This document shows positions 49,140 to 63,925 of a stretch of DNA of 63,925 nucleotides, piece after piece (the first letter of the stretch is position 1; the number at the start of each line of letters is the position of its first letter). Source of the stretch: Chloroflexota bacterium (GTDB lineage Bacteria > Chloroflexota > Anaerolineae > Promineifilales > Promineifilaceae); contig JAKEFB010000108.1 in assembly GCA_022616275.1 (NCBI GenBank), forward strand, positions 1-63,925, written 5' to 3'. The notes below the pieces were generated by a model. It ran no database searches. It was not told where the DNA came from and was given only the letters and a program-made list of their open reading frames with translations. The position numbers and the translations under genes are program-made.

Positions 49140-51998
49140 TCAAGCAAAATTGCCGCTCAATCCAGACACCAGCGCCGTGACCTGCGCCCGGCGCGCCAGG
49201 TGGCTATTCCGCCGATCGACACTCCAGCTCGGATCCGGGTCCGGCAGGATCTGTACGGCCTGAGCTGCCTGGACCGACACATTGTCCGTGATGATCCATA
49301 ACGGGCGTGGGAAGGTGGTCAAGGGGGTGAAATGCACACCGATGGTAAATCCGGTCATATGGTTACTGCGCACGATCACCCGCCGGTCAACGTGCCCGTA
49401 GACCTTGATGCCTTCGATGCGCATGTTCAGGGTGTTCTTTCCTCGCTGGCAAGTTACGAAATTGTTCTCAATGACCAGGCTGCGGCAGTTACCCACGAAG
49501 ATGCCATGGCGTTCGCCCAGGGCCAGGCCGGGCAGCAATACGTTCACGGTGTTGCCGACGATCAAGGCCGCTGTCAGAACGTCTGGTTGGCCAGGAGCTG
49601 GCTCGGCGTGGCTTAGCCCCAGGTGAATACCCTGAATCACGTTCTGAACCGTGTTGTCCAGCACCCGTACGTCGCCAGCCCGTTGCCCGCCGATCACGAT
49701 TCCCTGAGAGGCTGAGGCCAGCTCTGGTTGGGCGGTTTCGGTGATCACGGCGCGGATGGCAGCCGGGGCATCTGAAGCCGCCCCCCCCTCTGCCTTAAGG
49801 ATCGCTTCAATTGTATCTTTGACGTGTGCATTCACTGCCATCGCATCGGCCGGCTGGCTTAACGGGTGAGCGGCGAACAGCGTCTTCCAGGGGTTATTGA
49901 ACCGGTGCGGCACCAGCGACGAGGCTGTAGCGAAATGCGCGGTGAACTCTCCAAAGTTCACACTGGCGTTGGTCTCGGGCGGCGGCGACGCTCCCGCATC
50001 GGTGATCGTCAAGTTCGACATCACTGCTTTCATCACCAATCCACGGTAGAGCTTGTTCTCCCACCAGTTAGCCGGCGGCTGCGGCGCGGGCACGGTCTGC
50101 ACCAGGTTGTCTTCTATCTGCGAACGGCTCACGTTCACCAGCAGAAGGCCCACCTGGCGGTTTCCCACTTGCAGGTTGCAGCCGCGAATGCGCGCCACTT
50201 CGGCTGGGGTGGTAGGCGCCTGTGGATTGCGCACGGCCAGGCAGGCTGCTGCTCGCGTCAAGCCCGAGGCGCATTTCAGGCTACTATTCTCCACCGTCAC
50301 GCGCGGGCAGTTCAGGAAAGTCAGCGTGCCGTTCAGGTGCTCCGTGGCCGGCTGGCCTGAGCCCAGCTTGCCACTCTCGGCGTACAGGTCGCGCACGCTC
50401 ACACTGTGGCAGTTTTCAAAGCGTAGCGCCGTCTCACTCCCGGCCGCCACGATACGCGTCCCCGGCCCAGCGCCACGTAGCAGGATGTTCCCCTTGTTGT
50501 TCAGTAAAGCCGGCACGTCCAGATCGTAGACACCGGCGTGCAGGCAGATCTGGGCGTCCGTCCCATCTGGCAACCCGGCGAAGGCTGCCGCCAGATCCTG
50601 CCCCGGCACCACTTCCAGCGTGCAGCCGGTACCGTTGCGCTGGCAGAGGATATTGATCGCCTCCTGCACCGTCGTCACCCCCTCCAGGGCGCAGGTGGCA
50701 TTATCGAAGCTAACGTCGCTGGCCGTGATCTCGGTCAGCGCCGGGAACATCGGCCGGCAATCGCTCACGACAGTGAACTGCTGGGTAGCGCTATTGTAAT
50801 CCACCAGTGCCAGCGGGGCGTATTGGTGCTCGATCCCGTGTGGTTTGGCCAGCAGCGCCTGGTTGGAACTGTCCTTTGGCCACTCTAGCGTCCCACCTTC
50901 GGCCGGGTTGGCTCCGGGGTTGAGCGCCGTGCGGGCGGCAAACACCCAATAATCGCCGGCCCGGTAGGTGCCAGCGCTGAACTCGATCTTGATCCCATTT
51001 TCTAGTTCTATCGGCCCGGCCCCCAGGGCGATGCCCTCGCCGGTCGCGCCGGACCCACTCTGGTCCCAGCGCCGCAGCCGTACTGGCCGGCTCATATCCA
51101 GCGCCGGCACGGCTGTCTTCATAGTAATCTCACGTTTGGACGGATCAATTTTGTCAATTTGCAGCAGCGCACCGTGTCCGTCATTTAACTCCATCGGCAG
51201 GTCAATTAGCTCCACCCAATGGTCGTTGGCGAAGCCCAGGACCTCGTCGCGCCCCAGATCCTGCACCGTGACCACCGGCGAGACCGCCGCCGTGACATAG
51301 GTAGCGACTGAGCCGTTCTCACGCGACCATTTAAAGGTCGCCCGGTTGCCGGCGTTGTCCCGTTCGCCACTGCGATGGATTTCCACCCGATAGAACTGGT
51401 TCTCCAGTCCCAAGTAGCCGCTCGTGGCAGGTAGGGCACATAGGTTGGAAGAAGTCGAAACAGGATCGTGGTAGGCCCTCATCATCCCACTCGGGCTGGG
51501 TACGGGCGGCGTATCGGCATCGATAGCGTCGCAGCCGGTCACCGGGTTCGGTGAGAGGCGGATCTGCCAGAAGCTTTGCAGGCGGGTGGTCGTATCGGGG
51601 CCACCCAACGCCGACTCGCGAATCTGCGGGTCTTCGATCGCGGTCACATGCCGCTTCCAGGCGTCGAGATAAACCAGGTAGCGCCCGCCGGCGGAGGGCT
51701 TGGCCGGCGTCACGACACTGGTCAAGTCGTTTTCACAGAGTGTGCCACCGGCGTATAGCCGGCCATTGCCAATGCTCAACTGCTGCCCGCCCCCCGTCAC
51801 ACCTATCTGGAATCCACCGCCTTCCTTAGGCACGCCAGACCAGCCAACCACATCGGTCATCCCGGTCTCGCGTAGATGTGCCTGGATCGCCTGCTCCTCG
51901 TTCCAGTCGGCGTCGGTCAACACGCGCCCCTGCTGCATCAGCACGGCGTCGTAGTGTTTCTGCTCCTCAAAAGAAAGGCGACTGAAATCCCCTTTCAT
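49140..51998 (-). CDS. DUF6519/parallel beta-helix protein, last gene of the eCIS operon
   Basis: 952 residues. The N terminus MKGDFSRLSFEEQKHYDAVLMQQGRVLTDADWNE is the signature of the DUF6519 family found in contractile injection-system clusters. Residues about 1-400 are beta-rich. From about 440 a right-handed beta-helix follows, with repeated short strands and Asn turns (ALRFENCHSVSVRDL, LTFLNCPRVTVENS, LNVSRSQIEDNLVQ, SLVIENNFVTC), interrupted by a helical insert at about 690-760. Such proteins may form the outer baseplate or fibre region that touches target cells (inference). AGGAGG 6 bases before the ATG is the strongest ribosome site of the operon, so many copies may be made. A terminator follows. 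Confidence 0.85.
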   Translation of the reverse strand: MKGDFSRLSFEEQKHYDAVLMQQGRVLTDADWNEEQAIQAHLRETGMTDVVGWSGVPKEGGGFQIGVTGGGQQLSIGNGRLYAGGTLCENDLTSVVTPAKPSAGGRYLVYLDAWKRHVTAIEDPQIRESALGGPDTTTRLQSFWQIRLSPNPVTGCDAIDADTPPVPSPSGMMRAYHDPVSTSSNLCALPATSGYLGLENQFYRVEIHRSGERDNAGNRATFKWSRENGSVATYVTAAVSPVVTVQDLGRDEVLGFANDHWVELIDLPMELNDGHGALLQIDKIDPSKREITMKTAVPALDMSRPVRLRRWDQSGSGATGEGIALGAGPIELENGIKIEFSAGTYRAGDYWVFAARTALNPGANPAEGGTLEWPKDSSNQALLAKPHGIEHQYAPLALVDYNSATQQFTVVSDCRPMFPALTEITASDVSFDNATCALEGVTTVQEAINILCQRNGTGCTLEVVPGQDLAAAFAGLPDGTDAQICLHAGVYDLDVPALLNNKGNILLRGAGPGTRIVAAGSETALRFENCHSVSVRDLYAESGKLGSGQPATEHLNGTLTFLNCPRVTVENSSLKCASGLTRAAACLAVRNPQAPTTPAEVARIRGCNLQVGNRQVGLLLVNVSRSQIEDNLVQTVPAPQPPANWWENKLYRGLVMKAVMSNLTITDAGASPPPETNASVNFGEFTAHFATASSLVPHRFNNPWKTLFAAHPLSQPADAMAVNAHVKDTIEAILKAEGGAASDAPAAIRAVITETAQPELASASQGIVIGGQRAGDVRVLDNTVQNVIQGIHLGLSHAEPAPGQPDVLTAALIVGNTVNVLLPGLALGERHGIFVGNCRSLVIENNFVTCQRGKNTLNMRIEGIKVYGHVDRRVIVRSNHMTGFTIGVHFTPLTTFPRPLWIITDNVSVQAAQAVQILPDPDPSWSVDRRNSHLARRAQVTALVSGLSGNFA

Positions 51999-52014
51999 GT
52001 GCGACCTCCTCTTG

Positions 52015-54195
52015 TTACGATGCGTAATAAATGCCTGCCTCCAAGCCGAAGCGGAGGTATTCTTCCAGGCGCACGCGCAGATTAGTTTCGCGCTGTGGCT
52101 GGTACAGATCGTGGAATGCGCCCATCTCTGCCTCGTCCTCTGCTCCGTTACGGATCTCGATCGGGCAAGCCAGTAGTAGCTGGGCGTAGCCGGGATGGCT
52201 GTATTCGCGGGCGGTGAAAATCGGTTCCAGGCGACCCTCTACCTGGGCCTGGATCTGCGCTTCTTCCGCAGGCGTCAAAGAGGGGTTGTCCTCCCGCGCC
52301 TGCGCAATGGCCTGCCGGGTTGCCAGGGCGGGCTGGCAGTTGTACTGGCGCGGCGTCTGTGAATTGGGCGGCACATACGAGAAGCGCACACAGCCCTGCT
52401 GCTTGCGCTTGCTCTGCAACTGTCCGGTGAAAATGCTGTTTTCGGCCAGCTCCACCTCGCGAACATAAACACGTCCGAAAATCGTGCTACGCCGGACTTC
52501 CAGGACTCCGCTGGCCTCGCTGCCATCGGTGCTGGCAGCCAGAGCGAAGGCCACATCGTCAAGGGCGTCTACGATGCTGTCCAGGATCTCCACCCTTACC
52601 CCTGATCCGGCCAACAGCCGGCCGCAGATAGTATGGTCTAACACCAGCCGGCCCTTGCTTTCCCCGCTCAGGCTGGCCGCTTCCCATTTAACCGAAGGTG
52701 CGGTAGGAGGTTTGGGTTGGCCAGTCTCTTTTTCCAACCAGGGGGCAAGCGTACATTGTTTGACGACCAGCGTCATCGCCTCTGTCCCACCCACTTCGAC
52801 GCCGCCGGTGATCAGCAGCCCATCCAGGGTCAGGGTAGCATCCTGGGCGGCGTTTATGGTGATCTGCCCGTCCAGTACCGGGCGGAAGCCGTTGCCGGCC
52901 TGCAGAGTCAGCACCTGATCGGCCGCCAGGGTGATCGTCAAATCCCCGCTCAGCGTGCGGCTCTCAGCGATCTCCACCGCACCATCCTGGGTGGCCAGGC
53001 TATTGAGCGCCTGTTGCACGGTCAGCCCACTCTGCGGGACTTTGAATGCGGGCGCAGGTTGGGTGGCGCGGCCATACTGACCGCTGCCCATCTTGTGGCT
53101 GAAACCGTGGGCGTAGCTCACCAGCACCTGCTCGACATCCACGCCGGCCGGGAAAGCCAGCCGCCCCAGGCTGGGGTCGACGGCAACTCGAATCGTCAGG
53201 CCCACCGGCGGATCACCCGGCTTGCCGGTTGGCTGGTAGTTTTTACTGTTCGGCGGGCGGCGCCAGAACTCGGGGATGGCTGGCTGCGGGTCGCTCAGGT
53301 CGCAGATCAGGATCTCTTCCGAAAAGATCTCATCCAACCCGCCGGCGCCCGGCACAAACAGTCGCAGGACCGGCGGGCTGCTGAAATAGGCGCCCACCCG
53401 CCTGGCTTCCTCGGTAGACTGGCCATCGGCCAGCGCCTGGCGCTGCCGCTCCAGTTCCAGGAACAACTCGCGCCTGACCAGGGGCTCTGGCACGTTGACC
53501 GGCTCGGCCAGGTGGGTGATGCTCTTCTCTGTTGCCGGCGAGTTGAACAGGGGGGCGTCCATCCCCAGTGGATGGAAGGTGAAACACCCGGCGGCGAGCT
53601 TTTTGGCCGTGCCGGCCGTAATGGGAAAATCACCCAGCCGCCAGAGGAAGAGGCCCACATGGGCGATGTTGTAGCGCCCGCCGCGTCGCACCCGGCGCAC
53701 TTCCAGGGCGTGCGTTAACCGGTCGAAGGCGGTATTCAGGCGGCCCAGCGCCTCGACCTGCCGCAGGTCCGGCGTGACCTGGTTATACAACCGCAAGTGG
53801 TTCATGTGTTGGGTCGTCGCCAGCCGCTCGAAGAACTCCACCGTCCGAGCCTTCCAGCCGGTGACATCTTGGGCAAGTTGTTCCAGGGTGGCCGCCGGTC
53901 CCTTACGCCTGCGGTAGCTGATCGTGTTCGCTACCTCGGCTCGTGGGCTGCTCACCTCCGGCACCACCCCGTGCAGCCCGCGATAGCCGATCAGGTCGCC
54001 AATGTAGGGCACCACCCAGTCGGCGCAGGTCTCAATAAACTGGTCATCGTAAAGCTGTTCCAGATCCTCCTGCAGGGCCTCGACCTGTTCGAAGATGACC
54101 GAGAGCAGCGCCTTCAGCGGCAGACCCTGTTGATCGTCGTAAACCCGGTAAATCTCCGGCAGGAGGCTGTAAAAGCGTTCCAGCTTTTCGTTCAT
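52015..54195 (-). CDS. Phage tail protein I-like baseplate protein (Afp12-like) with beta-helix half
   Basis: 726 residues. The first about 230 are a tail-protein-I domain: LERFYSLLPEIYRVYDDQQGLPLKALLSVIFEQ, then IETCADWVVPYIGDLIGYRGL and YRRRKGPAATLEQLAQDVTGW. In phage P2 gpI is under 200 residues. Here the protein goes on with a beta-sandwich-like part (about 230-390) and a beta-helix-like array (about 400-560: GDLTITLAADQVLTLQAGNG, QITINAAQDATLTLDGLLIT, VLEVRRSTIFGRVY), ending with a helical tail. Baseplate wedge function plus a surface-exposed extension is likely. The ATG overlaps the stop of the upstream gene by 4 bases. Confidence 0.87.
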   Translation of the reverse strand: MNEKLERFYSLLPEIYRVYDDQQGLPLKALLSVIFEQVEALQEDLEQLYDDQFIETCADWVVPYIGDLIGYRGLHGVVPEVSSPRAEVANTISYRRRKGPAATLEQLAQDVTGWKARTVEFFERLATTQHMNHLRLYNQVTPDLRQVEALGRLNTAFDRLTHALEVRRVRRGGRYNIAHVGLFLWRLGDFPITAGTAKKLAAGCFTFHPLGMDAPLFNSPATEKSITHLAEPVNVPEPLVRRELFLELERQRQALADGQSTEEARRVGAYFSSPPVLRLFVPGAGGLDEIFSEEILICDLSDPQPAIPEFWRRPPNSKNYQPTGKPGDPPVGLTIRVAVDPSLGRLAFPAGVDVEQVLVSYAHGFSHKMGSGQYGRATQPAPAFKVPQSGLTVQQALNSLATQDGAVEIAESRTLSGDLTITLAADQVLTLQAGNGFRPVLDGQITINAAQDATLTLDGLLITGGVEVGGTEAMTLVVKQCTLAPWLEKETGQPKPPTAPSVKWEAASLSGESKGRLVLDHTICGRLLAGSGVRVEILDSIVDALDDVAFALAASTDGSEASGVLEVRRSTIFGRVYVREVELAENSIFTGQLQSKRKQQGCVRFSYVPPNSQTPRQYNCQPALATRQAIAQAREDNPSLTPAEEAQIQAQVEGRLEPIFTAREYSHPGYAQLLLACPIEIRNGAEDEAEMGAFHDLYQPQRETNLRVRLEEYLRFGLEAGIYYAS

Positions 54196-56960
54196 GACAT
54201 CACTCCTAGCTCGCTCAGCGGCACCGGGTCGAGGGTCAGCAACTCGGCCCCCACCGGTTTTCCAAGCGGGTCCAGGCTGGGCGGGTGCGGCGAAATGCGC
54301 GCTGGCGGAAAAGCCGCGGGAGTCTCCAGGCTGCGGTACAGCTTGGTCACGTTGACGGCGATCACACCTTTGACTGCCTGGATGGTGGCAATGAGTTCGC
54401 TGAGCGTTACCGGCTGGCCAAAGTCCCGTTGATCGAACGAGAACACGGCCCGCAGCGCCGCTTCCACTGCCGCCAGAACCTTAGCCGGCTCGTAGTCCGG
54501 GTCAATCTTGACCTGGGCGGCGAGCTTGAAAAACCCTTTCAGGTACGATTTAGCCTGGATAGGGATCAGGGGATCGCCAGCTTTGTGCATCGCTGCCAGC
54601 AGGTCGGAGAGCGTCTGGCTATCGTCTTTGACTTCGGCTCCTTTTGCCCCGGCCACGGTCAGGAACACCTCGCGCCGCTGGCCCGTCCAGGTCCAGGTCG
54701 CCAGCGCCTTGGCGATTCCGGCAAACGAACGAGCGAAGTCCTCGTAGTCACGGAGCGACACGATACGGTCCAGGGTCATTACCGTCAGTGGGGTGTTACG
54801 CCGCGCGTCGTCCCGGCTTTCGGGGTCCGCTGCTCCCTCCGTATCCTGCGGGTTGGTCACGGCTTTTATCCCTAGCGGGCGGGTCATCAGCAGGCTAATC
54901 TGGTCGGCTTTGACCAACCCGGCCGTGCCAATGCCACGCCGGTAGCGGGCGCGGACGTTTTCCTGTCCGGTGGGCAGGCGTGCGCCGGTTTTTCCATCGC
55001 CGAACTGCACAACGACCGACCCTTCGTCGGTCCGGCGGGTAATATAAACCCGCTCGTTTGGCCCGCGGCCGTAGAAATCCGGCACCTCCTTCCACAGCAC
55101 ATCGTTGACCCGCACTTCCAGGGTAGACTGCGCCCCACTGGCCGTCCCGGCCTTGACGTAAGTCAGTGGCGGTTGGCGCAGCTTGAAACTCTGGAAAGCC
55201 TGGCTGGCGTCCCCGCTGCCGAGCACCTCTTCGCGCGTCTCGCCGTGGGTCGCCATGGCCACGTTGGCGTGGATCGTCACTGTCTCACGTACGTAGTGGT
55301 TCACCAGCGATTTTGAAAGGGTCAGGCGCGTATAGCCGTCAGCCTGCAGCAGGTGCGCCACCTCTTTCAGGGTAGCAGTCTCGCAGGCGCGCGTTCCACG
55401 ATTGTCAGCCAGTTCGCCGCACACGACGATTTTCTGCCCGGCGGACAGCCCATCCACCCAGCCGTTACATTCGATTTCATCGTCGGCGACTTCCGTCGTC
55501 AAGGATTCACGGGCCAGGATCAATTCCTCGGGCTGCCCGTATACGAGCGTGGTCCGGATGGCGAACTGCTCCAGACCGTTGTAATCGTTCAAGGTCAGGC
55601 GTGTCACCCGTCCGCTCAGGGTGAAATCGCTCTTAGAGAGTTCGACCGTGGCGTTCACGGTATAGGCTTTGAGCGTGCTCTGGTCGCGCAGCACCACCCA
55701 GCTTCCCTGAGCAATACCAGCATAGGTATTGTCGAGGAACATGTTTGTGCTGGTGCTCGTCTCGCCAGGATAATTCCGGAGTTTGCCGGCGAAACCAACA
55801 TTGGTTACATCGGCCCAGGAGTTCTGACGGGAGGAGTAGACACCGGCCACTGTGGTAGCTTTGGTTTTGGTGTTGTCTGATGGATCGGGGATGAACACGG
55901 TCTCGTAGGCACGTTGGCTATAGGGCAGGGTAGACCAAAGCGGGGCATTGTGTCCGAAAATCGCTGCCCGCGTGCGCAGAACATAGACGTTGGGCGCGAC
56001 CGGCCGAAGCGCTTTCAAATGCTCGAACAATTCCTGGGTCTGGAAGCCCTGCTGCTGGGCCAGTGCGGCCAGCCCGGCTGACGTCTGGGTCTGGCCCAGC
56101 AGCGTGCTGGCTAGCGCGCTGGGGGCAGGGGGGGTCTTCTGGTTGCTGGCCAGAGTGAAGCCAGTCAATGTCTGCTTGGGCGCCGAGGCCAGCCGCACCT
56201 CTGTGCGCCCTTGGTCGGGCTGGGCCAGCACTTCTGCTGCCTGGCAGAACAGGTAGCTGTTTCCACCCAGCGGCACCAGCAGGGTGTCGCCTGCCTTCAG
56301 GTTGAGCGCGCCCCCCTCGACCACCAGCTTGGTCATCGCTGCGCTGCGCGGGTGCGGTTGGGTCAGGCGCGGTCGGATAGCGTTCCAGGTTGGGCGGGCC
56401 TCGATCTTCTCCACCGTCTCGAAGATCTGCGGCTGCCCCCCTGGTTCGGGGACACTCTGCGCCTTTACGCCTGCCGCCAGCATTACCTGGGAGGGCACAC
56501 CGGCCATCCCGGCCCCAACGCCCGGGAGTTCCTCCAGCGTGAAGGCCAGGGTGGTGCTGGCTGCCACGCCCGGCCGCAGTTCGTAGCCGATCAGCCGCGC
56601 CAGGTACAGCAGGGAGAGCCGCTCCTGAGCGGTGCGTAGATATTGCTCGTTGGCGATCCGCTCCTGGTAAAAAGTGAGCACATCGGCGACCGTGGCCCAG
56701 GTGTCCAGCAGGGCGATAGCAAAATCATCCTCGTCGCGGGTGTTTAGTTTTTGCAGCGCCGCCCGCAGTTCAGGGTCGCGGGGGTTAGAGAGCCGCGCCA
56801 ATAGGCTACGTTTGAAGCGACTATGCGTGCCGATGCGGTATTGAATGGCGTTCAGGCCGGGGCGATTGTATACCTCGGCCGGCGCCTGGATAGCCAGCCC
56901 CTGGCAGCACCCGCAGGTATCCAACTCCGATGGTGGGTCGCTCACTGGGCTTGTGTTCAT
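54192..56960 (-). CDS. Large baseplate assembly protein, second gpJ/gp6-type
   Basis: 922 residues. An opening with a Cys pair (CGCCQGLAI) is followed by the family segment QYRIGTHSRFKRSLLARLS and DFAIALLDTWATVADVLTFYQERIANEQYLRTA (about 40-110), the counterpart of the NYLAxDYxSFRxxLL start of baseplate J proteins. The C-terminal part has the J-typical LRDYEDFARSFAGIAKALATW (about 735-755), VFLTVAG and TLSELIATIQAVKGVIAVNV. It resembles the other large protein encoded just upstream, suggesting an old duplication. Such proteins form the wedges around the hub. The gene overlaps both neighbours by 4 bases. Confidence 0.88.
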   Translation of the reverse strand: MNTSPVSDPPSELDTCGCCQGLAIQAPAEVYNRPGLNAIQYRIGTHSRFKRSLLARLSNPRDPELRAALQKLNTRDEDDFAIALLDTWATVADVLTFYQERIANEQYLRTAQERLSLLYLARLIGYELRPGVAASTTLAFTLEELPGVGAGMAGVPSQVMLAAGVKAQSVPEPGGQPQIFETVEKIEARPTWNAIRPRLTQPHPRSAAMTKLVVEGGALNLKAGDTLLVPLGGNSYLFCQAAEVLAQPDQGRTEVRLASAPKQTLTGFTLASNQKTPPAPSALASTLLGQTQTSAGLAALAQQQGFQTQELFEHLKALRPVAPNVYVLRTRAAIFGHNAPLWSTLPYSQRAYETVFIPDPSDNTKTKATTVAGVYSSRQNSWADVTNVGFAGKLRNYPGETSTSTNMFLDNTYAGIAQGSWVVLRDQSTLKAYTVNATVELSKSDFTLSGRVTRLTLNDYNGLEQFAIRTTLVYGQPEELILARESLTTEVADDEIECNGWVDGLSAGQKIVVCGELADNRGTRACETATLKEVAHLLQADGYTRLTLSKSLVNHYVRETVTIHANVAMATHGETREEVLGSGDASQAFQSFKLRQPPLTYVKAGTASGAQSTLEVRVNDVLWKEVPDFYGRGPNERVYITRRTDEGSVVVQFGDGKTGARLPTGQENVRARYRRGIGTAGLVKADQISLLMTRPLGIKAVTNPQDTEGAADPESRDDARRNTPLTVMTLDRIVSLRDYEDFARSFAGIAKALATWTWTGQRREVFLTVAGAKGAEVKDDSQTLSDLLAAMHKAGDPLIPIQAKSYLKGFFKLAAQVKIDPDYEPAKVLAAVEAALRAVFSFDQRDFGQPVTLSELIATIQAVKGVIAVNVTKLYRSLETPAAFPPARISPHPPSLDPLGKPVGAELLTLDPVPLSELGVMS

Positions 56961-59536
56961 TTTCCACCTCTGACCGTCAGGCGAAATACGCCTCGCTTGG
57001 GAAAATTCGGATCGTTGTCCAATTGGGCGATCTCCAGCCGGCCGATCGCCAGTTGCCCACTCTTGAGAGCCACGTCGCTTGGTTGATCCTGGCGCTGGCA
57101 GCGGGTGATTTCCACCGAAGCCACGCCCGGCACCGCCTCAGCCGCCGCGTACAGTGTGCTCAGGAATACCGGCTGGCCAAAGGTGAAGTTGTCTGGATGG
57201 AAAACGCCTTTCTTCTCGCCCGGCAATGTCCGATTGCTGAAGACTTCCAACAGGGCGGCCTTCACGTCGCTGTTAAAGTAATCCGGCCGGGCGCAGACCT
57301 GTATCTCGATCTCCAGGGGTACGAAGCGCGGGCTATCAATCTCCAGGTCGTGGTTGATCATCCGGTAAGGTTCCAGGTAACTGCGCAGCCTATCTTCGAA
57401 GTCGGCGCCCACCACCAGGCCACCCAACCGGTCAACAGTCAGGAACACGGTGTGCCAGCTACCTGTCCAGCGCAGCGAGGCCGCCGCCCGCTGCACCTCT
57501 GCGTTGCCTCCGGCAATGGTGGCATAGTCCTGCAGCGTGACCGCCCGCTCCTGGGTGCGGAAAGCTACCGGGGCGTTCTGGCGCACCCGCTCAATGCTCT
57601 CCAGTTCAATGCCACCACGCGCCGCCAACGGGTTGCTTACACTTTCGATGTCAGCCACTGTGCTGACGATATGGGTGATCGCTCCCCGGCCGACGTTGCC
57701 CGCCGTCCCATTGCCCACCCGGTACACCGCCCTGAAGCGCATCTCCTCCGGCGGGCGGAAGCCGTGCCGCCCATCGCCGAAGCGTAGTGACGCGCTGCCG
57801 CCAGCCTCTACCTCCACTACGAAATCTCTTTTCTCCGGCCCACTGCTCAAAAGGTCGCGCTGGACCGTCCAGGTCTCGCTGGTTGAATCCAGGGCGCTCT
57901 CCAGGCGGGTCACAGCCGGTATGACCTCCGCCATGCGCCACTGCATGGCCGCCTGGGCCGGCTTGAGCGGTTCTTCATCATCCAGGTAAGGGTACCGTGC
58001 TGCCTGGGTCAGCGGGCTTTCCTTCAGCCGTGGGCGGTAGCGGGGCAGGATACTCTCCAACTGGCCTCTCTGTAAAGCGTTGCTGGCCGACCCGGCGAAC
58101 AGGCCGCTCAACGGCCGCCCGGAGACGCCGGCCGGGATCTCGGCCGCAGCGCGCACCAGCCTGGGACGAGGCACTGCGCCCAGATCTTCCGGATCGGTGA
58201 TCGTCCGCCCGTGGTCGGCCAGGACGATATTGCCCAGCGCCAGGCTCACGTCGTCAATGTCTACCCCGGCCGACAAACAGAGCGGGAAGGGTAGGGCGTC
58301 CTCGGCGTGCCATTCGATCTCGGTAACCGGCTGGTCGTTGAGCGGGTCGGTCAGCGGATCACCGTTCGTCTGCTGCGCCTGGACCTTCGTCAGGCGCACC
58401 GCGCAGCGATGGTCCGGGTCAGCGTCCTCCTGCTCGCCACTCTGCGGGCCGCGTACTTCGATAAAGATCAGCACGTCGCCCGCCTTTAGATTGGCCAGCG
58501 TACCGTTCAAGGTCGCCCGCGTGGCGCCTTTAGGCAGGCAGCACTGCCGTTCGCCCCAAGTGTAGAACTTTATCTCGTTGTGGCCAACGTACAGGTCGGC
58601 CACGGGCTGCATCAGCTCGAAAACCTGGGCTCCGGTCGCCAGGGCTTTCTCGAATTCTGCCGAATCGGGCCGGATGCGTGGCGCCAGCCCAGGCGCCTGG
58701 GTCAACAGTTGTGTCCCACGGGGCAGCAGCGGCTGATCCGGCCCCACCTGGTGAGCATCCTTGCTGACCCGCACCTGCACCCAGGCCCGGGCATTGCAGC
58801 CATCGTGCATGAAATAATCCACTAATCGAGCGTGGCGGCGAACCGACACCCGCCGCCGGGCAGTGCTCAAGTAAGCCTCGGTAGCAACGGCATCCTGCTG
58901 GTAACTCAGGTAATCGGCCGTGTAGGCCAACAGTTCCACCAGCGTCACTCCCAGGTCGGCAGGATTACGCGCCCGCCATTCCGGCAGCAGGATGGCGAGC
59001 CGGTCAAGCATCAGCCGCCGGAAGCTGGCATAATCCTTGGCCAGATAGTTGATCTCCGGCTCAGCCGTCAACTCCGGCGGGCAGACCTGTTCGGGCAGGC
59101 AGTCAAAATCGTTCGGGCAGGTAACTTTGAACGAAAAATCCACCGCCGAGAGCTGGGGATCGAAGCCGGCTGGCGGCGCCGGCTCTTCCTGCGAACGTAC
59201 CAGCCGCAGGGTGTAGGTCGAAAAATCGCCTGGCGTGTTGACTGTCACGGTCAGCACGTTGTCGTTGGTGACCGGGTCGGCGCTCAATTGAATATCCTTC
59301 ACCCGTTCGCCGCCTTCGATGCGCAGGTTATCGCGCGCCAGACCCGGCGCCGGCGCCGGCGGCACCGCCTCTGATCCCGAGCCAGGCAGGTTGTGGATGA
59401 AATGCACGGTCAGAGTAGTCTGATCCTCCGAAACCTCCAGGAAGTCAATCCCGTTCAGTACCGGCTTACCGTCCTTCAGCGTGGTCCGCACCGCGTTGCG
59501 CCGGTCATCGCTCTGGCATTGGTATTGAGTGCCCAT
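56957..59536 (-). CDS. Large baseplate assembly protein J/gp6-type (Afp11-like)
   Basis: 859 residues. An N-terminal beta domain (to about 160) contains immunoglobulin-like strands. It is followed by INYLAKDYASFRRLMLDRLAILLPEWRARNPADLGVTLVELLAYTADYLSYQQDAVATEAYL (about 170-230), the classic beginning of putative baseplate assembly proteins. The C terminus has VTLQDYATIAGGNAEVQRAAASLRW, VFLTVDRLGG and the closing VFLSTLYAAAEAVPGVASVEI. It is expected to build the baseplate wedge with the gp25 protein encoded before it. It overlaps the next gene by 4 bases. Confidence 0.9.
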   Translation of the reverse strand: MGTQYQCQSDDRRNAVRTTLKDGKPVLNGIDFLEVSEDQTTLTVHFIHNLPGSGSEAVPPAPAPGLARDNLRIEGGERVKDIQLSADPVTNDNVLTVTVNTPGDFSTYTLRLVRSQEEPAPPAGFDPQLSAVDFSFKVTCPNDFDCLPEQVCPPELTAEPEINYLAKDYASFRRLMLDRLAILLPEWRARNPADLGVTLVELLAYTADYLSYQQDAVATEAYLSTARRRVSVRRHARLVDYFMHDGCNARAWVQVRVSKDAHQVGPDQPLLPRGTQLLTQAPGLAPRIRPDSAEFEKALATGAQVFELMQPVADLYVGHNEIKFYTWGERQCCLPKGATRATLNGTLANLKAGDVLIFIEVRGPQSGEQEDADPDHRCAVRLTKVQAQQTNGDPLTDPLNDQPVTEIEWHAEDALPFPLCLSAGVDIDDVSLALGNIVLADHGRTITDPEDLGAVPRPRLVRAAAEIPAGVSGRPLSGLFAGSASNALQRGQLESILPRYRPRLKESPLTQAARYPYLDDEEPLKPAQAAMQWRMAEVIPAVTRLESALDSTSETWTVQRDLLSSGPEKRDFVVEVEAGGSASLRFGDGRHGFRPPEEMRFRAVYRVGNGTAGNVGRGAITHIVSTVADIESVSNPLAARGGIELESIERVRQNAPVAFRTQERAVTLQDYATIAGGNAEVQRAAASLRWTGSWHTVFLTVDRLGGLVVGADFEDRLRSYLEPYRMINHDLEIDSPRFVPLEIEIQVCARPDYFNSDVKAALLEVFSNRTLPGEKKGVFHPDNFTFGQPVFLSTLYAAAEAVPGVASVEITRCQRQDQPSDVALKSGQLAIGRLEIAQLDNDPNFPKRGVFRLTVRGGK

Positions 59537-59560
59537 CGCTCGCCTCTCCTGCGCGCTCCG

Positions 59561-59923
59561 CTACAGGTTGCGCCTGAATTTCGCCACTACTTGCTGCTGG
59601 TCGCGGCGCACCACGTACTGGATCGTCACTTCCAGCAGCGACTCGTTGCTCACTACCTGGACGGCTTCGACCTGGATCAGGTCACCGAGCCACTGTTGCA
59701 GCGCCCCCTGGGTCAGGAACTGCACTGTGGCCGCCAGTTCGCTGCTGTTCGGCGCAAACACCAGTTGTCTCAGGCCGCTGCCGAAATCCGGCCGGTTGAC
59801 CCGTTCGCCTGGGGCCGTGAACAGCACCTGCTCGATCAGGTCCCGGATGTGCTGTTCGTCGCCGGCCTGCGCCGTGCGGCCCCGGCCGTCAAATTGAAAG
59901 GGATAATCAATCTCTATAAGCAT
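59561..59923 (-). CDS. gp25/GPW-type baseplate wedge protein (Afp9-like)
   Basis: 120 residues. DEQHIRDLIEQVLFTAPGERVNRPDFGSGLRQLVFAPN is the gp25 family core with the EPR-like loop written as PGERVNRPDFG. In T4 and R-type tails this protein forms the start of sheath assembly and links the wedge to the sheath. The length fits. The gene lies between the PAAR-like and large J-type genes, as in Afp/PVC clusters. Confidence 0.92.
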   Translation of the reverse strand: MLIEIDYPFQFDGRGRTAQAGDEQHIRDLIEQVLFTAPGERVNRPDFGSGLRQLVFAPNSSELAATVQFLTQGALQQWLGDLIQVEAVQVVSNESLLEVTIQYVVRRDQQQVVAKFRRNL

Positions 59924-59929
59924 ATTGCC

Positions 59930-60274
59930 TCACGTTCCCATCACTCGGATCTGGGTGGCTACCACGGTGGGTGGGCCCTGCGGGATTTGCTCCACGCTCT
60001 GGCACAGGCCGGTGCTGGCCTGCAAAATGGCCGGCTGGCCGTTAATGAAAACACGTGTCGCCGGCACGAGCCAGCGGCCGGTGACGCAGGGTTGGGGCTT
60101 GGTGCCCGTGCCAATGGGGACCTGGAAGGGGCAACCGGCTACGGTAAAGATATCCGCAAGGGTAACGGCCGGTTGGCCGCCGAGCAAAACACGGGCATTG
60201 CTGGTGATAAAGGTGACTTGCCCGCCGTGCGGGCATATGCCGGAAGCGCCGACGTGAACGAGAAATCCAGGCAT
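59930..60274 (-). CDS. PAAR-like spike tip protein (Afp10-like)
   Basis: 114 residues with the repetitive PAAR-like pattern: a Cys/His pair near the start (ICPHGGQ), then ARVLLGGQPAVTLADIFTVAGCPF, KPQPCVTGRWLVPATRVFINGQPAI and a late GLCQS. The Cys and His residues probably bind a metal ion that sharpens the tip. It would sit on the gpV-like trimer encoded directly upstream (12-base gap). Cargo can be attached to such tips, but no extension domain is present here. Confidence 0.9.
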   Translation of the reverse strand: MPGFLVHVGASGICPHGGQVTFITSNARVLLGGQPAVTLADIFTVAGCPFQVPIGTGTKPQPCVTGRWLVPATRVFINGQPAILQASTGLCQSVEQIPQGPPTVVATQIRVMGT

Positions 60275-60286
60275 TGTCCATCTCCC

Positions 60287-60796
60287 TCAGGTGATAACCA
60301 GAGCGCCATTGTTGATGGTCACCGTAGGGCCGGCCATCACGATAGTGGCGCCTTTGCCGTTAGAAATCGTAATCCCGACATCGTTGACCAAAATCATGGC
60401 CCCGGTCGTGCTTTTGAGCATGATGCCACCGGTGCCGGGTACGTCGCTGACGACAATACTGTTTTGCCCGGTTGTTTGCAGCACGATGTTAGGCGAGGCA
60501 GGGATGCCGGCCAGGGCCAGGGCAGGTACTTCAGCGGCCGATCCCCAGAAACCGCCGGTCCAGATGGGATAGTCAGGGTTGCCGCCCTCAAATTCGACCC
60601 AGACACCGGCTCCAATGATGGGGACGACGAAAACCCCCATTTGTGGCCCGGCGATGGGCATACAGGGCATAGCCCAACTGGAAATACTGAGGCCCAATAC
60701 GTCCGGCACCTGGATCAATAAGCGCCCTTTTTGCAGCGGGTCAACGTTGTTGAGCACAAGCCCTCGATATTTGCCGTAATATTTGTTGTTATCCAT
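60287..60796 (-). CDS. Spike base protein, gpV/gp5 OB-fold type
   Basis: 169 residues from the ATG at 60796 (YYGKYRGLVLNNVDPLQKGRLLIQVPDVLG); an upstream in-frame start at 60931 overlaps the hub gene and is rejected. The OB-fold domain (about 1-95) is typical for baseplate assembly protein V/VgrG, with WVEFEGGNPDYPIWTGGFWG. The end (about 105-169) is a short beta-prism-like repeat (NIVLQTTGQNSIVVSD, GIMLKSTTGAMILVND, GITISNGKGATIVMAG). The trimer should form the needle carrying the PAAR tip. In Afp8 and VgrG this part is fused to the hub, here it is a separate gene. Confidence 0.88.
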   Translation of the reverse strand: MDNNKYYGKYRGLVLNNVDPLQKGRLLIQVPDVLGLSISSWAMPCMPIAGPQMGVFVVPIIGAGVWVEFEGGNPDYPIWTGGFWGSAAEVPALALAGIPASPNIVLQTTGQNSIVVSDVPGTGGIMLKSTTGAMILVNDVGITISNGKGATIVMAGPTVTINNGALVIT

Positions 60797-60893
60797 AAAA
60801 ACGCCCCGTAGTTTGGGGGGACTGGAGAGTGGCAACGTTCCGTTGCTCCGGCAACCAGGGTTGCTCCCAATCTCCAATCTCCAATCTCTTTTA

Positions 60894-62021
60894 TTACGCC
60901 GGCACCCGAGGAACAGTAGAAACCAGGCCATTCCGCGTCAGGGTAAAATCTTGTTTGTATTGGCCGCGTTGGATTTTGTGGGTGACACTCTTGACGAAGT
61001 AGAGACCATTGAAGGCGTCGCCTGCACCGCGTACGCCGACCAGTCCCCGCGCTTTCAGGATGCGGCCGTAGCGCAAGACATCTAGCGTGCCCGTGCCCGT
61101 CACGGCATCAGACGTTTTGGCCGCCTCGGCCAGGCCCAGGGCTATCGCCTGCGCCGGATTGAGATTGGCCGTGTTCGTCATCATCTCAAAACGCGCCGGG
61201 AAAGGGGGGATGAGGCCTAGCGGTGGATTTAGAGGGCTGATGTCAGGAATGGGGATGGGAATGGGCACTTTCGTCTCCTCGTTCTGGATGAAGACGATCG
61301 GCATCACTTTAGAGGCACCATTGAAAGTAAAACTCAACGACTCAACGTTGGTGTGGGCGTCCATGTTGACGTTGAGCGCCGGCTGGGGCACGCCGACCTT
61401 GATCTCCGGCCCCCAATAGGCGACGTTGACACCCGGCGCCGGCCCCGGCTCGATGTAAAAGACGTAACCCACTTCTCCGGCCAACCGGTTGATATATTCC
61501 AGGTCTTTGCCCTGGTGGGTGGGGATGCGGCTGATGGGAATGGGCACGTCTAGAAAAAGGCTGGGGATGATCAGGGGCACGATGCCAAAGGCGGCATACT
61601 TGAGCAGGATGAAAGCCACCCTGGCCTCGGCCGGCATGGCCGGATAGGGAATGCCGGTAAAATCCACGTAAGCCAGAACGGCCGTTAAATCTGACCCCGT
61701 CACCGTGAGCGTCGCCTGCCCTGTTTCCACGTTGGGCGTGACCTGGTGCTGCACCACCACCCCATCCATCAAGACGTGCGGCGTGCCGTTTACCGTTACC
61801 ACGATGATGGTACGGATGAAGGGGCCAATCTGGCCCAGCAGGAGCAGCAACGGGACCAGGGCTGACTTGTTGCTGAAAGTAAAGGTCAGTTGAAAGCCAC
61901 TTGGCTCACCGGCCGCGTTTCTGACCTCCACGCTGACCAGGGCATCAATGAACGCTTTCGGCACAGGCACGGGGACGATTGGCCCCATCAGGAGGGTGAG
62001 ACGGATATTACCTGGCAACAT
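60894..62021 (-). CDS. gpD-like hub protein (N-terminal VgrG/Afp8-like)
   Basis: 375 residues. The LTVTGSDLTAVLAYVDFTG and IPTHQGKDLEYINRLAGEVGYVFYIEPG segments match phage late-control gene D/VgrG hub proteins. Beta-barrel strands before and after are consistent (SFTFNGASKVMPIVFIQN). The end GVRGAGDAFNGLYFVKSVTHKIQRGQYKQDFTLTRNG is typical of gpD. It forms the ring between tube and spike. The hydrophobic, Pro-rich stretches (VPVPVPKAF, VPIPIPIPD) are unusual but no membrane segment is implied. It starts 7 bases after the LysM gene. Confidence 0.88.
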   Translation of the reverse strand: MLPGNIRLTLLMGPIVPVPVPKAFIDALVSVEVRNAAGEPSGFQLTFTFSNKSALVPLLLLLGQIGPFIRTIIVVTVNGTPHVLMDGVVVQHQVTPNVETGQATLTVTGSDLTAVLAYVDFTGIPYPAMPAEARVAFILLKYAAFGIVPLIIPSLFLDVPIPISRIPTHQGKDLEYINRLAGEVGYVFYIEPGPAPGVNVAYWGPEIKVGVPQPALNVNMDAHTNVESLSFTFNGASKVMPIVFIQNEETKVPIPIPIPDISPLNPPLGLIPPFPARFEMMTNTANLNPAQAIALGLAEAAKTSDAVTGTGTLDVLRYGRILKARGLVGVRGAGDAFNGLYFVKSVTHKIQRGQYKQDFTLTRNGLVSTVPRVPA

Positions 62022-62028
62022 CGTTGCG

Positions 62029-62340
62029 TCACCCCGTCAGCCCTTCAGGTTGGGTGATGCGGAGTTTACGGCCGATTTCGGCCGTCAGTTCCTCCGGTTT
62101 TATGGCGTTATTGGCATCGGCAATGCGCCAAAATTGCTCCGGATCGCCCAAATAGTGGGCGGTGATGTTGTCCAGCCGGTCGCCACTGCCGACGATGTGT
62201 TCTTGAATCAGGCTGAACCGGTCTGGCGAAGGCACGAAGCGGCGGCGCAGATAGGCAATGGTCGTGCCGTCAGGCATCTCTATCGTCGCCTTTTCCACGT
62301 TGTGATAGCGGCTGGTGATGGGAAACTGTTCAAAAAACAT
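62029..62340 (-). CDS. LysM-domain baseplate protein
   Basis: 103 residues from the ATG at 62340 with AGGA 8 bases upstream (a TTG at 62346 is less likely). A beta-strand front part ends in TTIAYLRRRFVP. A LysM domain follows (EHIVGSGDRLDNITAHYLGDPEQFWRIADANN, about 48-79) and the closing IGRKLRIT. In contractile systems LysM domains belong to inner baseplate or tube-adaptor proteins and are not necessarily peptidoglycan binders. The gene overlaps the Afp7-like gene end by 11 bases. Confidence 0.88.
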   Translation of the reverse strand: MFFEQFPITSRYHNVEKATIEMPDGTTIAYLRRRFVPSPDRFSLIQEHIVGSGDRLDNITAHYLGDPEQFWRIADANNAIKPEELTAEIGRKLRITQPEGLTG

Positions 62341-62995
62341 CGTCAATTCCTGTAATCCCCAAATCAGTGAAGGTGCCGGTCCGGCTTAAGGCGGCCAGGC
62401 TTTCCAACCTTTGTTGGTGTGTCATGTACAAATTGCCGCCCCTGTGTTCAAAGCCCAGATCATTCACACTCAAGACGCGCAGGCCCAGGCTGACTTTGGC
62501 CCGGATGGGGTTCAGGTTGGGGTCGAAGGCTTCCTCGGTAACGCTGAAATCGGTGAGGCGGACCGGTATGACCCGGTTCTGGCTCCAGACGAATAACGTC
62601 AGGGGCGCTTCGGTGGGCGCGATTTCCAGCGTACCGGCCGCGGCCAGGCTGTTATTGGTCAGGAGATCGCTGCTGTTGGGATAGTTGATGGTTTCCAGGG
62701 CGGCCAGTTGCGGGGCAATGCCGTGTTGCCGGACGGCGTCGTTTTGCTCTGGGAACTCAAGCTGGTCGGCCGCGTCAATTTCCGCCTCCAGCTTATACGT
62801 CTCCACCGGCGGCCCCTTGAGGCGCAGCGCCTGGGAGCGGTCGCCACTTTCACCCAGGGCTTGCGCCTGCAGCGTGCGCGACAGCGTTTCCGGGTTGTAT
62901 TGCAGCGAAATGATGCGCAGCACCTGTCCTGTGTCCGGGTCAACGAGGACAATCCCCCCCTTCAACAAACGCGGCGAACGTGGAAAAGTTGTCAT
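62330..62995 (-). CDS. Contractile injection system tube/adaptor protein (Afp7-like)
   Basis: 221 residues. The SLQYNPETLSRTLQAQ start (about 29-44), the GPPVETYKLEAEIDAADQ segment (about 60-77), PTEAPLTLFVWSQNRVIPVRLTDFSVTEEAFDPNLNPIRAKVSLGLRVLS (about 127-177) are the hallmarks of the CIS_tube family (Afp7/PVC7, gp53-like), which links the inner tube to the hub. In the canonical protein a C-terminal LysM domain follows; here it is encoded by the separate next gene. Its start overlaps the stop of the AT-rich gene (ATGA). Confidence 0.88.
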   Translation of the reverse strand: MTTFPRSPRLLKGGIVLVDPDTGQVLRIISLQYNPETLSRTLQAQALGESGDRSQALRLKGPPVETYKLEAEIDAADQLEFPEQNDAVRQHGIAPQLAALETINYPNSSDLLTNNSLAAAGTLEIAPTEAPLTLFVWSQNRVIPVRLTDFSVTEEAFDPNLNPIRAKVSLGLRVLSVNDLGFEHRGGNLYMTHQQRLESLAALSRTGTFTDLGITGIDDVF

Positions 62996-63645
62996 AGCAA
63001 TTCATTTCCCTTGTTCTTTGTAAAAGTCTCCACTTTGGTTAGTAAATTTTTAACGATTTCGTCATCATTAAGTATCTTTGTGGCGATCCGTCGCAGTTCA
63101 TCTAAGTTGGGGGGTTGGTGTGAATATAGGGCTACACACTTAGAGATGAACTCCCTGCGAAACCTGATTAATTTGTTTTGCAACACCACCTCTTCCCGCT
63201 TGGCAACCTCTTTTTCATGCTGCCTTTGTAATTCATGATGTTCCTCACTATCGGGCAAGCCATCATAACGATACTTACTAACGGCTGGAGGTTCCTGCTC
63301 CTCTTGTTGTGAGGTTTGATTGTCTAGGACCAATTTAAGACCAAGTAGATAAGGTCTGGCAATTTCTTGCCTTGCTGCAATAAAACCCCTGCTCGCAGTA
63401 TCGCCATATGACATTTCAAGCGCCTCTCCCCAATAGAGATATAATTGGCAGGCTTCAGTTAAACCAATGGGGTATTGTGTAGCTTTTTCACAATACTCAA
63501 TGACCTTCGCTGGTGGTTGCATCCTGTTGTTGGCATACATAAACGCAATTGCAGTATATACTGCCCCCATCTCTTCTGGGGACTTAGATTCCCTAAGTTG
63601 ATTCAGGTATTTAATTTCCAGTTTTTCTATTTCCGATTTGTTCAT
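62992..63645 (-). CDS. AT-rich helical (TPR-like) protein coupled to the eCIS operon
   Basis: 217 residues from ATG 63645 with AGGTAGGT 9-16 bases upstream; a GTG at 63684 would extend it by 13 residues. Family not recognised. The N-terminal half (about 1-110) is a helical pair pattern like TPR/SEL1 repeats (EEMGAVYTAIAFMYANN, AKVIEYCEKATQYP, EACQLYLYWGEALEMSY). The second half is highly charged and probably coiled coil (EEHHELQRQHEKEVAKREEVV). Base composition and codon use are visibly AT-rich against the GC-rich baseplate genes, suggesting separate acquisition. The stop overlaps the ATG of the Afp7-like gene by 4 bases, so it is translated with the operon. It could be a cargo adaptor or an immunity-like protein (inference). 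Confidence 0.7.
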   Translation of the reverse strand: MNKSEIEKLEIKYLNQLRESKSPEEMGAVYTAIAFMYANNRMQPPAKVIEYCEKATQYPIGLTEACQLYLYWGEALEMSYGDTASRGFIAARQEIARPYLLGLKLVLDNQTSQQEEQEPPAVSKYRYDGLPDSEEHHELQRQHEKEVAKREEVVLQNKLIRFRREFISKCVALYSHQPPNLDELRRIATKILNDDEIVKNLLTKVETFTKNKGNELL

Positions 63646-63723
63646 AAGTGTGATACCTACCTGTTTTAGAAAATGATGTTTCACATAGTTTTTTCCAAGT
63701 TCCTGAAGTTATAATTTGTTGGC

Positions 63724-63924
63724 TTACTTCCAAGGTCCTTGCCACTCTCCTGGAGCACCCATGTGGGTTTGTCTGGCTTGTTGATCTGCGCCTCGATATT
63801 CGGTATTGGTGGTTTCCTTTTTTACAAACTCCACCCATTTTCCAGCTTCATTTTCGTATTCTTCTTGCCATTTCACAATATAATTGAAGTCGACATAATT
63901 TGTGCCATTATGGATGTTATTTAT
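63724..63924 (-). CDS. 3' end of an unknown AT-rich ORF, cut by the window edge
   Basis: An open frame of 66 codons runs from the edge to the TAA at 63724-63726. It includes GTNYVDFNYIVKWQEEYENE, AGKWVEFVKKETTNTEYRGA and ends HMGAPGEWQGPWK. Strand-like, aromatic-rich sequence and a Gly/Trp-rich tail are seen. No family is recognised and it has no start in the window. It precedes the helical gene by about 80 bases on the same strand and shares its AT-rich composition. It may be the C-terminal domain of a larger cargo, toxin or structural protein. Confidence 0.6.
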   Translation of the reverse strand: MNNIHNGTNYVDFNYIVKWQEEYENEAGKWVEFVKKETTNTEYRGADQQARQTHMGAPGEWQGPWK

Positions 63925-63925
63925 A

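Follow-up and report, generated by a model that had tools for sequence, protein, structure and literature searches.

A mid-operon cargo bay in a contractile injection system of a Chloroflexota bacterium ends in an AT-rich cargo tail and an orphan gene

The stretch of DNA analyzed here (hereafter the window) comprises positions 1 to 63,925 of contig JAKEFB010000108.1 from a Chloroflexota bacterium of the family Promineifilaceae (GenBank assembly GCA_022616275.1). Toward its end it carries, on the minus strand, the baseplate genes of a contractile injection system of the extracellular type (eCIS), preceded by an AT-rich gene for a 230-residue protein (P0001; 62992..63684, minus strand, with the start codon GTG at 63684 or ATG at 63645) and by the last codons of a further open reading frame (ORF). 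This ORF belongs to core3, the third of three cargo-type genes with an eCIS_core (DUF4157) domain, and these genes lie mid-operon, in an interval between the AAA ATPase gene and the Afp7-like gene that is a standing cargo bay. We consider it probable that the window holds the 3' end of this bay, that the C-terminal tail of core3 is a payload and that P0001 was acquired with this tail as its partner.

The last 101 bases of the window (63825..63925) recur exactly as the first bases of contig C303, which belongs to the same genome (sequence identity checked), and have no other match in this genome at E <= 0.001. The first 692 residues of core3 are encoded on C303 (L003:2-2077, minus strand, L003 being the C303 stretch) and the C-terminal 66 in the window (63724..63924, minus strand; from the ORF list and the overlap), with 33 residues common to both pieces, which were searched separately, one per contig. 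Extension past 63.9 kb, proposed in an earlier note made from the window sequence, thus recovered the rest of the partial ORF, together with sheath, tube and ATPase genes. Read against transcription, C303 carries the rest of core3, a 711-residue eCIS_core protein, a 416-residue LGT-family membrane protein, a 757-residue eCIS_core protein with an SLT transglycosylase match, a 96-residue gene, the AAA ATPase, a Pvc16_N cap, a 299-residue protein, a T4_baseplate protein, the gp19 tube and the sheath, followed beyond the sheath by a glycosyltransferase and then a BTAD regulator. An eCIS gene set (sheath, tube, gp25, Baseplate_J, Phage_base_V spike, PAAR, AAA ATPase and Pvc16-type cap) is therefore present in one cluster, spread over two contigs joined by the 101-base overlap.

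This arrangement would be undone by an error of assembly or binning, if the window contig and C303 do not in fact adjoin or if a branch from a strain variant was collapsed, and the genome does consist of 309 contigs with 5.5% contamination, joined here by the 101-base overlap alone, a short overlap that resembles a k-mer graph break. The far end of C303 likewise makes a 101-base exact match to contig C245 (and an 84% match to C273); a k-mer assembler would be expected to leave such overlaps where it cuts contigs. However, the overlap is exact and in frame within one ORF, no other contig matched at the same threshold, relatives show the joined gene order (sheath to ATPase, cargo, Afp7, hub) within single contigs, and the low GC content is present on both contigs. 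We regard an artefact as very improbable. The contig break (63825-63925) falls inside the variable tail of core3, and a graph branch at that place would fit strain variation of the cargo in the sampled population.

Apart from the window's genome itself, 14 of 148 relatives were found to have an Afp7-like protein. The stretches around these matches were fetched, and their genes were assigned with a simple ORF caller and by BLAST to the window proteins. Both the ATPase and Afp7 were visible in 11 loci, one of which (L044) shows only the first 34 Afp7 residues at a contig end; L026, L036, L037 and L043 are cut by contig ends. Since all 11 loci hold one to six eCIS_core genes between the two flanks (4, 4, 6, 2, 1, 2, 2, 4, 2, 1 and 1), the interval is a standing cargo bay and not the operon start. 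The gene directly before Afp7, ORFs on the opposite strand being disregarded, encodes an eCIS_core protein in 11 of 13 visible loci (in L042 with a 0.6-kb gap); the remaining two loci have a gene for an 81-residue (L031) or a 185-residue (L026) protein. The earlier note had placed the AT-rich genes at the start of the operon and had expected afp6 directly before the Afp7-like gene. Neither holds, as C303 carries the sheath, tube, cap, ATPase and three cargo-type genes further upstream and the place before Afp7 is usually taken by an eCIS_core gene. Its suggestion of a recently introduced cargo or accessory module fits the eCIS_core ORF and the foreign-looking composition described below; the part that put this module into a structural operon at the place of afp6 is wrong. 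As to whether related clusters carry these two genes, cargo genes are there in the relatives, P0001 is not. A literature search returned no title on a cargo bay between ATPase and Afp7; it covered passages of five papers and makes no claim that the bay is unpublished.

The Pfam scan covered 30 of the bay ORFs, most of those outside it being small: the 28 that resemble the window's cargo proteins all matched PF13699 and the two small ones did not. The motif HEXXH was found in all 30 eCIS_core ORFs of the relative loci, and HELAH in all three eCIS_core proteins of the window's genome. Most bay tails had no Pfam match. Where one was found, it was to VanY (two proteins), Aspzincin_M35 (two, one of them below the cut-off), or, once each, Annexin, OmpA, Peptidase_M15_3, Peptidase_Mx and DUF7689.

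The eCIS_core proteins consist of a constant N-terminal head and differing C-terminal tails. In core3 the eCIS_core domain spans residues 327-404 of the 692 encoded on C303 (Pfam, E 9e-33), and in the other two cargo proteins between the ATPase and Afp7-like genes it was matched at E 2.2e-31 and 1.3e-33. Because of this domain the partial ORF was classed as cargo-type and not structural; the earlier note had named a standard structural gene as the outcome that would speak against its reading. Seven proteins were compared, three from the window's genome and four from the closest relative, G041, whose Afp7 match is 85% identical and which has other cargo at the site. Their heads are 48-74% identical up to a motif resembling LRSGLRLQRC. 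Their tails are unrelated, except for a core2 family formed by core2 of the window's genome and the second G041 protein (57%), to which the fourth G041 protein is faintly related. The tail of core3 had no match in the G041 stretch.

The tail of core3 and P0001 form one foreign-looking AT-rich block. The reference values were GC 0.590 +/- 0.032 and GC at third codon positions (GC3) 0.686 +/- 0.049, from 36 ORFs hand-picked from the window ORF lists, the ten operon genes included. In the C303 piece of core3 the head has GC 0.590 and GC3 0.561, the tail GC 0.464 and GC3 0.392, the fall in GC lying at about residues 360-420, near the end of the eCIS_core domain; this fall in GC is the largest among the bay proteins, and the accompanying fall in GC3 is among the larger ones. 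The 66-residue end in the window has GC 0.408, in agreement with the second AT-rich ORF of the earlier note. P0001 has GC 0.414 and GC3 0.398, a lower GC3 than any of the 16 structural genes measured, whose minimum is 0.583. The block ends at the P0001 stop codon and the Afp7 ATG, and the Afp7-like gene is back to GC 0.595 and GC3 0.730. As the earlier note had it, the AT-rich gene overlaps the Afp7-like ATG, by its last four bases (ATGA); the same overlap occurs in L031 and L035, where other genes sit. P0001 begins 39 bases after the core3 tail (78 if the ATG is the start), in the same direction.

P0001 is a soluble, cytoplasmic-looking orphan as far as our searches reach. Its best Pfam match was MIR (E 0.058, 13.7 bits against a cut-off of 25.6), no toxin domain was matched in Pfam or NCBIfam and no TPR or other helical repeat in Pfam, and nothing was found at E <= 0.1 in NCBIfam, PHROGs or PADLOC, or in plasmids or phages. 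No match was obtained in the 148 relatives or in 396 genomes of its class, nor at E <= 1 in G041; the ORFs of the 15 fetched loci gave none under E 0.31, and four small genes of other bays showed no similarity to it. Among 399 genomes of the phylum two gave weak partial matches (E 0.005-0.007), which were rejected as chance matches, the ORFs looking on reading like a cytochrome P450 and a tyrosine phosphatase. The relative, class and phylum samples overlap in part, so that these counts cannot be added. Peptide patterns of P0001, a method that finds close relatives only, matched neither genome nor viral contigs. The best of three PDB matches, a nanobody (E 0.024 over 41 residues), was also taken as chance. 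An AlphaFold2 model is all helix, which agrees with the helical protein of the earlier note, albeit at low confidence (pLDDT 56); in Foldseek this model gave loose matches only (best E 0.27, none at E <= 0.001), which were not used as evidence. No hydrophobic segment was found, the maximum over 19 residues on the Kyte-Doolittle scale being 0.76.

By eye, the core3 tail was read as an Ig-like region with another, likewise beta-rich, stretch after it. Its best relative is encoded by an ORF on a plasmid of Opitutaceae bacterium TAV5 (CP007054, L054:5476-6723; an ORF without annotation as such), with 38.6% identity over 133 residues (E 1e-10). The two proteins share a stretch PSDR.RSKLGVGE; unlike core3, the plasmid protein has no eCIS_core match, and it follows a gene with weak DUF6531 and RHS matches below the Pfam cut-off. 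A two-row alignment of the tail had no match in the genome-contig set, a three-row alignment had none in the viral-contig set, and a three-row profile searched against 400 genomes of the phylum matched the window's own genome only. The tail alone gave five other weak matches (E 0.003-0.01), of which one (L049) was read and looked unrelated. The plasmid relative and the scarcity of the tail would fit acquisition from outside, without proving a donor. A 234-residue gene beside the plasmid ORF was considered as a relative of P0001 and rejected (BLAST E 0.86; hhalign probability 0.1%).

From gene order, domain content, head/tail mosaicism, base composition and the absence of the orphan from the searched genomes, we infer how loading, payload action, joint acquisition and the role of P0001 may fit together. 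The three cargo proteins share a common head, ending after the eCIS_core domain at the LRSGLRLQRC-like motif and followed by unrelated tails. By analogy with known systems, the probable function of the head is docking, so that the protein can be loaded into the lumen of the tube, and the tail would be the payload. The core3 tail and P0001 would have been acquired together as a cargo module. P0001 is taken as the partner of the tail because it resembles it in composition and direction, lies 39 bases behind it and is missing together with it from the nearest relative. Most likely it would stay in the producer, as an immunity protein or as a loading chaperone specific to the tail; immunity is ranked first, and the chaperone next, because in Micromonospora eburnea a gene just downstream of a CIS effector relieved the toxicity of the effector (PMC13277306).

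Several observations weigh against this interpretation. The link between P0001 and the tail consists only of adjacency, composition and joint absence in one relative. The core3 tail had no Pfam match outside eCIS_core at E <= 0.1, and so no recognized toxin or enzyme domain, and nothing in the PDB under E 0.69. It is weakly similar to a protein beside Afp7 in G052 (4e-4 in a single BLAST comparison; HMMER domain E 0.11, whole sequence 0.56), which is adjoined by an unrelated 185-residue gene, and the 234-residue gene beside the TAV5 plasmid relative has no detectable similarity to P0001. These other neighbours suggest no obligate pair, and our confidence is therefore moderate. Afp7 is the next gene after the last cargo gene in 11 of the 13 relatives, so that cargo proteins do not in general require a partner. 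Composition was also compared in 32 bay proteins whose tails measure 300 bases or more (a row with a shorter tail, from L042, was excluded): GC was higher in the head than in the tail in 29 of them (Wilcoxon P 2.5e-7), GC3 in only 17 (P 0.13). A modest drop in tail GC is therefore partly general and partly a matter of amino-acid content, and by GC3 the foreign look seems limited to core3 and some other tails.

P0001 might instead be an injected effector in its own right, lacking an eCIS_core domain and loaded through the neighbouring eCIS_core protein, as Sle1 beside Sle2. It is predicted to be helix-rich and adjoins an eCIS_core gene, and in Streptomyces the helix-rich Sle1 adjoins the DUF4157-bearing Sle2 (PMC13277306); moreover, adjacency to DUF4157 was reported for 21% of eCIS-associated toxins (EATs) as against 3% of non-EATs (PMC11297309). 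However, Sle1 carries a large coiled coil at its N terminus and is predicted to form a transmembrane hairpin (PMC13277306), whereas P0001, with 230 residues, lacks both a hydrophobic segment and a toxin-domain match; in particular, a transmembrane helical hairpin of the Sle1 type was not found in its C-terminal part. We think this reading unlikely. A role as a lineage-specific accessory of the baseplate or hub, replacing a small structural gene such as afp6, appears more unlikely still. The ATGA overlap with the Afp7-like gene, and the genes without eCIS_core domain at the same place in L031 (81 residues) and L026 (185 residues), are in its favour, but P0001 and these two proteins are mutually dissimilar, the neighbour of Afp7 is an eCIS_core gene in the other 11 of the 13 relatives that show this place, and the GC3 of P0001 lies under that of every structural gene measured. 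Nor did P0001 show, among the 148 relatives, the conservation with the baseplate expected of an Afp6-like protein: at the same settings that found the Afp7 gene in 14 of them, no homologue was obtained.

Several known systems come close to the one found here. In AlgoCIS the tube is filled by Cgo1 and Cgo2, which have a common N-terminal region and DUF4157 but differ at the C terminus (PMC8894135); in Streptomyces, a DUF4157 protein attaches to the tube initiator (PMC13277306, PMC8894135). Like this cargo and the EATs described by Geller (2021) and Danov (2024), the proteins found here have HEXXH, an N-terminal head and differing C-terminal domains and are encoded with the system. Unlike them, they lie in mid-operon between ATPase and Afp7 in every relative with both flanks, the core3 tail lacks a Pfam domain, and an orphan gene comes next. 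EATs tend toward the 3' end (Geller, 2021), but Danov (2024; PMC11297309) allows for genes inside the operon, and a position in mid-operon may therefore not be new in itself for cargo. Polymorphic toxin systems with cognate immunity are alike in their constant head, variable tail and small gene of similar composition right after; the core3 tail differs in having no recognized toxin domain, and toxicity and immunity would here be putative. The Sle1/Sle2-type effectors of Streptomyces CIS are alike in that a helix-rich protein stands beside a DUF4157 protein, and P0001 differs in its size and its lack of a hydrophobic hairpin. A Roseiflexus CIS may act in the cytoplasm (PMC12998442).

The operon in the window was as the earlier note described it, with ten closely packed minus-strand genes (49140..62995), seven of which had a contractile-injection-type Pfam match at E <= 0.001 (DUF6519, Baseplate_J twice, gp25, PAAR, Phage_base_V and CIS_tube). 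In the order of transcription, and all on the minus strand, the first structural gene after the cargo bay encodes the Afp7-like tube or hub protein (62330..62995; CIS_tube, 26.2 bits), followed by a LysM-like protein of 105 residues (62029..62346; weak matches only) and a VgrG-related, hub-like protein of 375 residues (60894..62021; a weak NCBIfam match and a weak PHROG tail match). Then come the spike with its Phage_base_V domain (60287..60931), the PAAR-like tip (59930..60274; 22.1 bits), the gp25 baseplate wedge (59561..59923) and two Baseplate_J proteins (56957..59536 and 54192..56960), all assigned by Pfam, the PAAR and CIS_tube scores being under the Pfam cut-off of 27. A 726-residue baseplate-region protein (52015..54195) had PHROG baseplate or tail matches only (E 0.05-0.06) and no Pfam match under E 0.01. 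The last gene of the operon as read here encodes a 952-residue DUF6519 protein (49140..51998; Pfam) with weak beta-helix matches at its C terminus.

Further observations were made in the bays and around them. One eCIS_core protein (L032:15905-17890) has a tail with three Annexin matches (Pfam E 1e-32). Annexin is a mostly eukaryotic membrane-binding domain. A bay protein of 1358 residues (L035:10721-14797) has two matched eCIS_core stretches, the best near the C terminus and the other at about 335-411, around the Peptidase_Mx region. The gene of the LGT (prolipoprotein diacylglyceryl transferase) family membrane protein (L003:4236-5486, minus strand) lies between the SLT-bearing and the second cargo genes and overlaps the former; its counterpart in G041 occupies the corresponding position (L031:10189-11427, 54.6% identity), and neither 'LGT' nor 'prolipoprotein' occurs in the main text of an eCIS survey (PMC8213781). 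A short gene of 80-115 codons, whose members share an end resembling [LV]GQQIAQAVYGG, comes after the ATPase in the window's genome (L003:7725-8015, minus strand) and, among 13 loci scanned by pattern, in eight relative loci (L031:7692-7946, L032:8399-8692, L033:7832-8098, L034:12612-12932, L038:4641-4988, L039:14244-14510, L040:8273-8515 and L041:14638-14883); in L035 and L042 the ORFs at this place are similar by eye. One member was scanned and had no Pfam match at E <= 1. This gene is a candidate for a small component conserved in this eCIS lineage. Immediately upstream of the sheath gene, an 898-residue protein with several glycosyltransferase domains is encoded (L003:15205-17901), and further up a BTAD-domain protein (L003:18341-19312); BTAD is a reported eCIS shell domain (PMC8213781).

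For the most part the finding is explained by a known kind of gene, a polymorphic eCIS-type cargo gene, and what is new is one unexplained companion. A far-reaching extension, to which we give little credence, is that the bay swaps whole payload cassettes, each a tail with its own partner gene, across phyla behind a constant docking head, with payload domains that occur in other secretion families as well. Contractile injection systems would, on this view, have a new class of immunity or loading proteins, each specific to a tail, and P0001 would be its first member. The field has yet to settle which features mark a protein as a payload of an injection system and by what means producers withstand their own payloads, and many of the eCIS toxins that were tested are puzzlingly without immunity genes (Geller, 2021). 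A fixed cargo bay with a conserved docking head and exchangeable tails would offer a natural series for both questions, in which P0001 is a small, concrete and testable candidate partner.

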